Of a DNA stretch of 32,234 bases, positions 913 through 32,234 are shown piece by piece. The stretch comes from Phycisphaerae bacterium (GTDB lineage: Bacteria > Planctomycetota > Phycisphaerae > UBA1845): positions 1 through 32,234 of the forward strand of contig JAJDDQ010000055.1 in assembly GCA_029260215.1 (NCBI GenBank). The letters are read 5' to 3'. Every line of letters starts with the position of its first letter. Position 1 is the first letter of the stretch. The notes beneath the pieces are model-generated. The model ran no database searches, was not told where the DNA came from, and worked only from the letters and a program-made list of their open reading frames with translations. Made by a program: the position numbers and the translations under genes.

Positions 913-1197
913 GCTGCTTCGTGACAGGTCAGCCGTGTGCAATGTCGGGTGACAAAAAACACGGCGAGGACGGTATTTTCTCGCACAGACGCAACAATAG
1001 CCTTCTTTCTCCCCTCCTTCAAAAGGAGGGGCCGGGGGACGTTCTTTTTGCGAGACGAAGCGTTGCTCCAGTCCAGACCCCCCTGTATCCCCCCTTTGCA
1101 AGGGGGGAAGAATTGTTCCCTGACGCAAGGAAACGACAGAAGACAAAAGAAGACAAGCAAGTATGCATTGCACATGGCTGACCTGTTACGCTGCTTC
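913..1197. mobile_element. 269-bp MITE with 24-bp TIRs and 8-bp target duplication
   Basis: The element proper is 921-1189. Its left end is 921-944 (GTGACAGGTC...TGCAATG) and its right end is 1166-1189, the reverse complement of GTAACAGGTC...TGCAATG. The two ends differ at two of 24 positions. GCTGCTTC directly precedes the left end (913-920) and directly follows the right end (1190-1197), a perfect 8-bp target-site duplication. The interior holds two perfect 9-bp stems with 3-nt loops: CCCCTCCTT-CAA-AAGGAGGGG (1011-1031) and TCCCCCCTT-TGC-AAGGGGGGA (1088-1108). The open frames crossing it look spurious and none resembles a transposase. IS66-family insertion sequences are known for ends starting GTAA and 8-bp duplications, so mobilisation by an IS66-type transposase is inferred. 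Confidence 0.8.
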
Positions 1198-4089: not shown

Positions 4090-5136
4090 ATGTTACCCCC
4101 CGTGACGACGATACAAAGGACAATGCCCGTGGAACCAACGATCCCGCTCATCCAGCCGACCCGCGCATCGTTTCCTATGGAGCTTTACGCTCCGATCGAG
4201 GACGATCTGGCAAAGGTCTCGCGGATTCTGCAATCCGAGTTGCGCAGTGATCACCTCTTTGTAAATGAGCTTTTCGGGCGCATTCGCGGCTATCACGGCA
4301 AAATGCTCAGGCCTGCGTTGTTGTTGCTTTCCGGGAGAGCGTTTGGTGAGATCGGCGACGCGCACCACACGCTGGCGGCGGTGGTCGAACTGGTCCACGT
4401 TGCGACCCTCGTTCACGACGACGTAATCGACGATGCACGGGTCCGGCGGAAGCACCCGACCATCAACGCGACAAACGGCAACGTGGCGGCGGTTCTCTTG
4501 GGTGATTACCTGATTAGCCACGCCTACCACCTTTGCAGCAGTTTGCAGGATCAGTATGCGTCGCGCGCGATTGGGGCTACGACGAACACCGTTTGCGAAG
4601 GTGAGTTGATGGAGATTCACCATCGCCACGACGCGACGCTGAGCGAGCGTGACTATTTTCGCATTATCCGTGGCAAAACGGCAGCACTGACGGCTACCTG
4701 CTGTGCGTTGGGGGCGCGTTATTCGGACGCTGATGACGCTGCGGTTGAGGCTTTGCGCGAGTATGGAATGAGTGCGGGTGTCGCGTTTCAGATTGTTGAC
4801 GACGTGCTCGATTTGGTCGGGGAAACCGCGTTGGCCGGCAAAGACCTTGGGTTGGACGCGGCCCACGGCAGTGCGACGCTGCCGATTTTGCACTGCATCC
4901 GCGCTGCGGATTCGGCGGTCGCGTCACAACTTGTCGAATTCATATCCGGTCGTAAGAGTATGTCGCGAAACGAGTTGCGATCTTTTCTGGTTGAGACGGG
5001 GAGCATCGACTACGCGATCGACACGGCCAAGCGGCACGTCTCGCGGGCGACAGATTCTTTGAGTGGGCTGAATCCGTCCGAAGCGCGGGACACGCTGACC
5101 GCGATGGCTGACTTCATTATTCGACGCAATTCCTGA
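4090..5136 (+). CDS. Trans-polyprenyl diphosphate synthase (IspB/HepT type)
   Basis: This condenses isopentenyl diphosphate onto allylic diphosphates to make long-chain polyprenyl diphosphates, probably for the quinone side chain. The all-helical synthase fold is indicated by KMLRP (71-75), the first aspartate-rich motif DDVID (110-114) in the context LVHDDVIDD, GDYLISHAY, GELMEI, KTAAL and the second motif DDVLD (237-241). The length of 348 residues suits octaprenyl/heptaprenyl synthases better than farnesyl synthases, and the simple DDxxD first motif is the long-chain type; exact chain length cannot be read from sequence. The ATG at 4123 is an alternative start, but AAAGGA lies only 2 bases before it. 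A weak TTGTCG/TGAATA pair with a 17-base spacer sits at 4033-4061. Confidence 0.88.
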   Translation: MLPPVTTIQRTMPVEPTIPLIQPTRASFPMELYAPIEDDLAKVSRILQSELRSDHLFVNELFGRIRGYHGKMLRPALLLLSGRAFGEIGDAHHTLAAVVELVHVATLVHDDVIDDARVRRKHPTINATNGNVAAVLLGDYLISHAYHLCSSLQDQYASRAIGATTNTVCEGELMEIHHRHDATLSERDYFRIIRGKTAALTATCCALGARYSDADDAAVEALREYGMSAGVAFQIVDDVLDLVGETALAGKDLGLDAAHGSATLPILHCIRAADSAVASQLVEFISGRKSMSRNELRSFLVETGSIDYAIDTAKRHVSRATDSLSGLNPSEARDTLTAMADFIIRRNS

Positions 5137-31524: not shown

Positions 31525-32142
31525 ATGAATCCCAAGGCTATCACCGGAGCGTTTGCCGGGGCTGTTGTCGGTGCGATTGTCTGGGCGGTTGTGGCTGCGA
31601 CCGCCAATGTTGAGATTGGTTACATCGCCTGGGGAATCGGCTTGGCGGTGGGTTTGGGCGCGAAGTTTGGAGGCTCTGAAGGACAGAAGGCCGGTGTTAT
31701 CTGTGCCGTATTGGCTCTGGCATCGATCTTCGCCGGCAAGATGTTCACGGTGGATTACGCGATTCGGGAGGAATTGGGCGACATATTCGCAGGCAACCTG
31801 ACTCAGGAATACTACGATGAGGTGATGGTGGATGCCGCCGATTTTGCGGAAATAGAGTCGACCAAAGACTACGCCGAATTCCTCGTGACGCACGGATATA
31901 CTGATGCCGCCATCCCCGAAGACGTGACCGTCGAGGAATTGAACTGGTTCGAAAAACACACCGTTGAAAGACTCCGCGAGCTTCAGCAGGATCAGCCTTC
32001 GTTTGATGAGTGGCTGGTGCTGGCGAGCGACCATAACGAAAAGAACCTCGAAATCGCAATGGCGGAGATCAGCGTCGTTCCCTTTGTCGTGGAGGTAACA
32101 GGTCAGCCATCTGCAATGCAAGGCACGGGCGCGGAATGTTAA
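31525..32142 (+). CDS. Small membrane protein whose C-terminus is encoded by a MITE terminus
   Basis: From the ATG at 31525 (AAAGGG seven bases upstream; the ATG at 31480 has none) the protein has 205 residues. Two or three hydrophobic segments fill the first 75 (TGAFAGAVVGAIVWAVVAAT, IAWGIGLAVGLGA, GVICAVLALASIFAGKMF), followed by an acidic soluble part (80-190). I recognise no family. Residues 191-198 (VTGQPSAM) are encoded by the 24-bp element end at 32095-32118, and the last seven residues are downstream of it, so the natural C-terminus may have been replaced. Confidence 0.65.
   Translation: MNPKAITGAFAGAVVGAIVWAVVAATANVEIGYIAWGIGLAVGLGAKFGGSEGQKAGVICAVLALASIFAGKMFTVDYAIREELGDIFAGNLTQEYYDEVMVDAADFAEIESTKDYAEFLVTHGYTDAAIPEDVTVEELNWFEKHTVERLRELQQDQPSFDEWLVLASDHNEKNLEIAMAEISVVPFVVEVTGQPSAMQGTGAEC
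32095..32118 (+). repeat. Solo 24-bp MITE terminus inside the 3' end of a gene
   Basis: GTAACAGGTC AGCCATC TGCAATG differs from the end at 1166-1189 (minus) at one of 24 positions. It is a left-type end in + orientation. No inverted partner occurs in the remaining 116 bases, so either a longer element runs off the window or this is a solitary end. The 8 bases before it are TCGTGGAG, which would be the duplication to seek downstream. Confidence 0.7.
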
Positions 32143-32234
32143 GATAGGTAGTTTGCGCGATTATCCTTGCGCTGGTATGTAGACCGTCATGCAGCCACGG
32201 AAGGCGAAAATCATTGCGGCGAAGGGATTGGTCG

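Follow-up and report, generated by a model that had tools for sequence, protein, structure and literature searches.

The element at positions 913 to 1197 is, with a probability that we put at roughly 93% from comparison of its sequence, an IS66-type MITE which takes its ends, and probably its enzyme, from a larger IS66 element in the same genome. As a mobile element it belongs to a known kind; the unusual part is its exchangeable and strongly conserved core. An abundant repeat thereby gets a named parent, IS66, which also explains ten contig ends of the genome that break off within this parent, and two defined mobile shells can be connected with a hairpin scattered over many phyla. Should the core prove to be a cassette that is exchanged and selected, the purpose of dispersed GC-rich palindromes would become directly testable.

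The window analyzed here is the entire contig C51 (32,234 nucleotides) of a draft genome of 4.97 Mb in 88 contigs that is 97.1% complete. All the features described in the original prediction were found at their positions in it. Read from the window, the 8-bp target duplication GCTGCTTC (no strand) is perfect on the left (913 to 920) and on the right (1190 to 1197). Within it lie the left terminal inverted repeat GTGACAGGTCAGCCGTGTGCAATG (921 to 944, plus strand; identified in the window and by a genome pattern search) and the right terminal inverted repeat (1166 to 1189), which reads GTAACAGGTCAGCCATGTGCAATG on the minus strand; the two agree at 22 of 24 positions. The interior contains two hairpins, each with perfect 9-bp stems and a 3-nt loop. 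Hairpin 1 (1011 to 1031) has arms CCCCTCCTT and AAGGAGGGG at 1011 to 1019 and 1023 to 1031, and hairpin 2 (1088 to 1108) has arms TCCCCCCTT and AAGGGGGGA at 1088 to 1096 and 1100 to 1108. Two third arms accompany them: G2 (1034 to 1042), here GGGGGACGT with the family consensus GGGGGAGGT, was placed by element alignment, and C2 (CCCCCC, 1078 to 1083) by element alignment and DNA fold. A perfect 8-bp flank pair around 150 to 350 bp with repeats matching at 20 or more of 24 positions occurs once in the window and in none of 60 simulated windows with the nearest-neighbor transitions of the real one, so a chance origin of the flank-repeat arrangement is excluded.

The neighbors of the element are a DUF3224 gene (276 to 671) and a 197-aa open reading frame without a Pfam match (1314 to 1907). 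Four open reading frames of at least 80 aa overlap the element, none with a Pfam match; there is thus no tnpC inside, and the element is non-autonomous. It is short, has terminal repeats and duplications, lacks coding capacity and occurs in many copies, as expected of a MITE. Rfam gave four matches between 600 and 1400, all far below the gathering score. Two relatives share the window. A truncated subfamily-B copy, of which the 3' part remains from a break in hairpin 1 onward, occupies 141 to 228 (compared by eye), and a second MITE type of 192 bp, with related ends, another core and a flank match of 0/8, lies at 697 to 888, 32 bp left of the main element. The core of this sister element contains the palindrome GCGTCCGCGCGGACTGAAGTCCGCGG (777 to 802), which starts with CGTC.

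With the element and its surroundings as query, 63 matches were obtained in the genome, and scores were computed for 40 of the 120 candidates from a first look. The 24-bp repeat pattern matched the genome 98 times at up to three mismatches (reversed control, 0). In these matches and the stretches near them, a tabulation of repeat pairs and flanks, as the original prediction had proposed, gave 45 repeat pairs, reduced to 43 elements when L002 1439 and L019 1374 were dropped as alternative left ends. The catalogue rule (an ungapped repeat and at most six mismatches at both ends) excludes copies with lost or gapped ends, such as L011, L012 and L016. Twenty-eight elements measure 236 to 288 bp and have the CCCCTCC/CCCCCC core in full or for the most part, 14 measure 191 to 194 bp and have another core, and one is 155 bp long. 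The repeats fall into two subfamilies, GTAACAGGTC and GTAACTCTTC, with one of each in some elements (e.g., L019 and L020).

Flanking bases agree at 8/8 positions in 11 of the 43 elements, at 7/8 in 15, at 6/8 in 4 and at no more than 5/8 in 13; a few of those with 0 to 2 matches may be chance pairs. When the left flank of one element was set against the right flank of another (n = 1,806), 7/8 was reached in 0.17% and 8/8 in none. Where 6/8 or more of the flanking bases match (30 elements), the agreement per position was 0.83 to 1.0 at length 8 and 0.03 to 0.47 at lengths 6, 7, 9 and 10, a comparison that is partly circular because these elements were chosen at length 8; the mismatched-pair test is not circular. 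Copies without 8-bp flanks had been named in advance as evidence against the prediction. They exist as the 13 elements with poor flanks, but 26 elements keep 7 or 8 matching bases. That the family arose as an artefact of repeats collapsed in a draft genome is most improbable: several of the 88 contigs do start or end inside these repeats, but the elements lie at 43 different places, 26 have matching flanks, and a reading frame is restored on removing one of them.

As judged from that frame, one MITE copy interrupts a gene which has an intact paralogue. The copy (C6:640-885, duplication TGACCAAC) splits a reading frame, and its flanks, minus the element and one duplication, form a single open frame with a signal-like start and a PEP-CTERM-like end (named by eye). 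The rejoined frame has 11 matches in its own genome, two of which are its own halves; among 60 genomes, 8 others also contain matches. Its best match is the intact paralogue on C47 (76% identity), with which the rejoined DNA agrees at 124 of 164 nt, ungapped across the insertion site; the 8 target bases are not conserved in the paralogue. Further MITE-like matches occur near the intact paralogue (L297, about 1293 to 1425).

The original prediction had reported no transposase, which is correct inside the element but not for the genome or even for the window: at its right end (32095 to 32234) lies the left end of an IS66 (ISBst12-like) element that is present in several copies. The left terminal repeat of this autonomous-type element (32095 to 32118, plus strand) matches the right repeat of the MITE at 23 of 24 positions, and the start of tnpC, MQPRKAKIIAAKGLV (32189 to 32234, plus strand), runs to the contig end and is continued on C54 by ...EAALRGELTDTQARWLTNE. 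PF03050 (TnpC) was detected at seven places in the genome, all of them partial; in several of the fragments the MITE-type repeat GACATTGCAGACGGCTGATCTCTTAC forms the end, at the tnpC stop or close to it, and the TGA stop codon falls inside this repeat. The proposed search for an IS66 transposase gene with matching ends was therefore successful.

Both ends of the parent recur at contig ends. The right-end pattern is matched in full close to the ends of C11, C15, C22, C31, C68 and C82, and a seventh time, with one mismatch, inside C24; internally, these ends agree with C82 at 121 to 132 of 132 nt. The left end GTAACAGGTCAGCCATCTGCAATG is located at four contig ends (C51, which is the window, C52, C54 and C85), identical inside at 113 of 113 nt, and the TnpC start encoded in this 113-nt stretch resembles the TnpC of an IS66 element from a related genus, L227 (15 of 31 residues identical, E 1e-6 in a single comparison). 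Outer flanks pair perfectly over 8 bp between C52 and C31 (CTCTGGGG) and between C85 and C68 (CAAAAATC). The left flank of the window copy, GTCGTGGAG (32086 to 32094), recurs after the right end on C82, over 9 bp rather than 8, and this shared flank suggests that C51 continues into C82. When the four left and seven right ends were compared, no flank partner was found for C54, C11, C15, C22 or C24. No complete IS66 copy is assembled in the genome, and left and right ends are joined only via their shared outer flanks. From the matching contig ends and the paired flanks, IS66 is present as several closely similar copies that the assembly does not bridge. These helper copies are presumably intact, and they may be active at the present day.

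Full-length IS66 elements were found in related genera, and PF03050 was present in 18 of 32 genomes searched. L217 is 1,599 bp long, encodes a 511-aa TnpC and has GTAACTCTTCAGCC at both ends, which is the start of the MITE subfamily B repeat; L227 is 1,542 bp long, with a 476-aa TnpC and the ends GTAACTCCTCAGCCACGTGCAATG and GTAACACATCAGCCATGTGCAAT. Neither has a clear duplication around it (2/8 and 3/8, respectively). L229 (1,581 bp, ends GTATCTGTTTAGCGCC) has flanks matching at 7/8. The terminal repeats of the MITE fit the IS66/ISBst12 end pattern GTRACNNNTCAGC. Several IS families make 8-bp duplications, which leaves some room for ends derived from a family other than IS66. This origin is very improbable: TnpC fragments in this genome end in the same repeat type with the stop codon inside the repeat, the IS66 left end in the window matches at 23/24, and ISDge4 of Deinococcus geothermalis, an actively moving member of the ISBst12 group, is described with the same end pattern (GTGACTACTCAGCA and GTAACTGCTCAGCA, against GTGACAGGTCAGCC and GTAACAGGTCAGCC in the MITE) and likewise with an 8-bp direct repeat (PMC12898284). 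The same account bears on the start of the left end, GTGA, which the original prediction had treated as one transition from GTAA; GTGA is also known in the ISBst12 group, in ISDge4 (PMC12898284). The prediction of a non-autonomous IS66 derivative is thus upheld by the 8-bp duplications of the family, by the TnpC fragments and window IS66 end with the MITE repeat, by the full elements of related genera and by the ISDge4 ends as published in that source. In the mechanism we propose, TnpC supplied by full-length IS66 copies at other sites of the genome would act in trans: it would recognize the 24-bp GTRACNNNTCAGCC...TGCAATG repeat and place the MITE at a staggered cut, producing the 8-bp duplication. 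Such mobilization in trans is what we infer for the family.

The hairpin arms of the core are better conserved than the terminal repeats. Across 28 aligned elements, mean column identity was 98.6% in the six arms, 85.0% in the terminal repeats and 75.3% in the rest, and the GC columns of the rest were likewise only 75% identical. In the 18 elements with both repeats in the list of 98 pattern matches, the arms reached 99.0%, the repeats 89.2% (93.7% without the subfamily columns) and the rest 77.1%. None of 10,000 column permutations gave a difference between arms and repeats as large in these 18 elements, a value that is optimistic because columns within an arm are not independent. A similar trend was seen in the 14 elements of the 192-bp type (palindrome, 98.6%; repeats, 92.4%; rest, 88.2%). 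The genome contains hairpin 1 in exactly this form 49 times and its reversed control not once.

Conservation of the arms could instead be an artefact of copy finding, or the result of gene conversion, rather than of selection. The first search scored its 40 of 120 candidates by window similarity, and its matches were dominated by the core, which would favor such a bias. It is nevertheless an unlikely explanation: the 18-element subset retains the gap between arms and repeats, GC columns outside arms and repeats reach an identity of just 75%, and the same arms were found again in IS630-type shells. The reading of the core that we favor, at about even odds, is that the palindromes themselves have a role under selection, either in recognition by a protein or as a DNA or RNA structure that aids spread or tolerance. 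The RNA fold of the whole element has a z score of -6.5, to which the terminal repeats contribute; folded as DNA, the core has a z score of -3.0, with G2 and C2 paired in the minimum-energy fold and unpaired in the centroid. G2 and C2 are conserved like the stems although the two simple hairpins leave them unpaired, which would point to structure beyond the two hairpins; candidates are a quadruplex, a triplex or a stem of G2 with C2. A bidirectional terminator was considered and dropped by eye, there being no T-run after the stems.

The same core recurs in MITEs of a different type in the same bacterial family. In related genera, ten pairs of the repeat AGTGCCGTTTCCAGAAAGGTTG delimit elements of 128 to 189 bp, seven of them 148 to 152 bp, and eight of the ten match the IS66-type MITEs via the core, whole or mostly, at E 1e-3 or better; the other two carry other palindromes. 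These elements differ from the IS66-type MITEs in the repeat itself, in having TA across both ends (6 of 10) and in having a full relative, L286 (1,171 bp, AGTGCCGTTTCCAGAAAGGTTG-type ends), that encodes HTH_32/HTH_29 and DDE_3 proteins. From these proteins and the TA target, we take the shells to be IS630-type. As the core is common to IS66- and IS630-type shells, comparison of the two indicates that it is not a relic of tnpC or of an IS630-type transposase gene. IS630-type shells with other palindromic cores were seen at L271 (1395 to 1522) and L275 (1361 to 1522), whose sequences suggest that palindromes are exchangeable. In three elements (L052, 1501 to 1769; L151, 451 to 691; L014, 1995 to 2281), part of hairpin 1 is replaced by a CTGGACG...CGTCCAG palindrome, as if palindromes swap. 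Of 298 genomes of the class, two have the two-hairpin pattern in its exact form (34 copies here and 1 in G031), and several more genomes of the same family have a relaxed form. We speculate, at somewhat less than an even chance, that the MITE shells of this planctomycete family are modular and that a cassette of two palindromes with six arms, related to the hairpin dispersed over many phyla, passes between IS66 and IS630 shells, is constrained above the ends and is itself what selection sees, rather than the shell.

More widely, the exact hairpin CCCCTCCTTNNNAAGGAGGGG was found in 12 of 199 genomes drawn from the phylum, including the source genome, and its reversed control in none. The hairpin with a third arm was found in 45 genome-contig stretches from several phyla, assigned by record title, including Patescibacteria, Planctomycetota, Bacteroidota, Nitrospinota, Nitrospirota, Armatimonadota and other groups. 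In a test for flanking inverted repeats plus duplication, applied to one match per stretch, only L121 and L134 exceeded the maximum of 77 random places, and the idea that the cross-phylum hairpin stems from MITEs in general was rejected. L121 (Methyloprofundus) has the ends GTAACCGTTCAGTC and the 8-bp repeat AAGTAACT, and its genome (G065) has no PF03050 match. At 4353 to 4456 of L121 (the reverse of the stored locus), a 104-bp unit with ends GTAACCGTTCAG and the repeat AAGTAACT contains a similar hairpin pair. The original prediction had likened the hairpin core to scattered palindromes and placed it in a defined mobile unit; the unit is found here, but elsewhere the hairpin mostly lies outside any recognizable mobile unit, with 2 of the 45 stretches as exceptions.

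Preferred insertion within genes was also rejected, as 10 of the 45 hairpins lie in spanning frames (open frames of at least 150 aa, some of which may not be genes) against 547 of 868 random places (63%), making such positions rarer than at random. Some hairpins are apparently in frame within genes (L098, L095 and L123). At L093 (1466 to 1532, the same place as in L095), a doublet without recognized terminal repeats lies in an open frame of a MAG of the same family, in a gene that is Hsp70-like by eye. Viral contigs yielded no exact doublets, and plasmids no match. Since the hairpin mostly lies outside any unit of repeats and duplication and sometimes within frames, it gives the impression of an independent dispersed repeat that has MITEs as one of its carriers.

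An alternative takes the hairpin doublet itself for the thing that moves: REPIN-like and mobilized by a RAYT (IS200-like tyrosine transposase), it would have inserted between IS66 and IS630 ends that were dead. The plan described for REPINs is two inverted palindromes with a spacer (PMC3116915), and the core has just such a pair. Doublets and singles without recognized repeats (e.g., in the Hsp70-like gene of L093/L095), palindromes without repeats at several of 12 places read in the source genome, and PF01797 genes in 15 of 18 genomes searched are consistent with this alternative, as are other C/T-rich hairpins at three RAYT loci, which include L186 and L187, the latter nearest in type (ACCCCTCTT and AAGAGGGGC). 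However, the hairpin itself was found in none of 30 RAYT loci (28 distinct, from a longer list; about 1.5 kb on each side), and the sole match of a formal scan, L206, has another sequence. Furthermore, spacer, flanks and repeats stay together as one unit in 28 elements, and the duplications lie outside the terminal repeats, not beside the palindromes. We therefore consider movement of the doublet by a RAYT rather doubtful and retain the reading of the elements as IS66-type MITEs with TnpC as the probable enzyme.

Among the literature matches listed, no paper described the element itself or any IS66 MITE built around a core of this kind, and its place among known systems is best given by comparison. 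Related full IS66/ISBst12 elements carry a single transposase gene, whereas the MITE lacks tnpC and has the two-hairpin core as its interior. With REPINs and BIMEs, as far as their published description goes (PMC3116915), it shares the inverted palindrome pair and the existence of both singles and doublets, but its palindromes sit inside IS-type terminal repeats with 8-bp duplications. The 192-bp sister is reminiscent of tagged REPs, its palindrome beginning with CGTC after a G, the tag reported for one REP super-family (PMC3733652). Like the Rickettsia palindromic elements mentioned there, the hairpin is in some copies located in an open frame inside a gene; it differs from them in its occurrence in many phyla, as judged here by record title. 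Similar by description is the Chunjie MITE of Geobacter uraniireducens, which is 178 to 235 bp long and is reported with 38 copies that have repeats and direct repeats, together with further intergenic copies and 57 partial ones (reviewed in PMC10969869).
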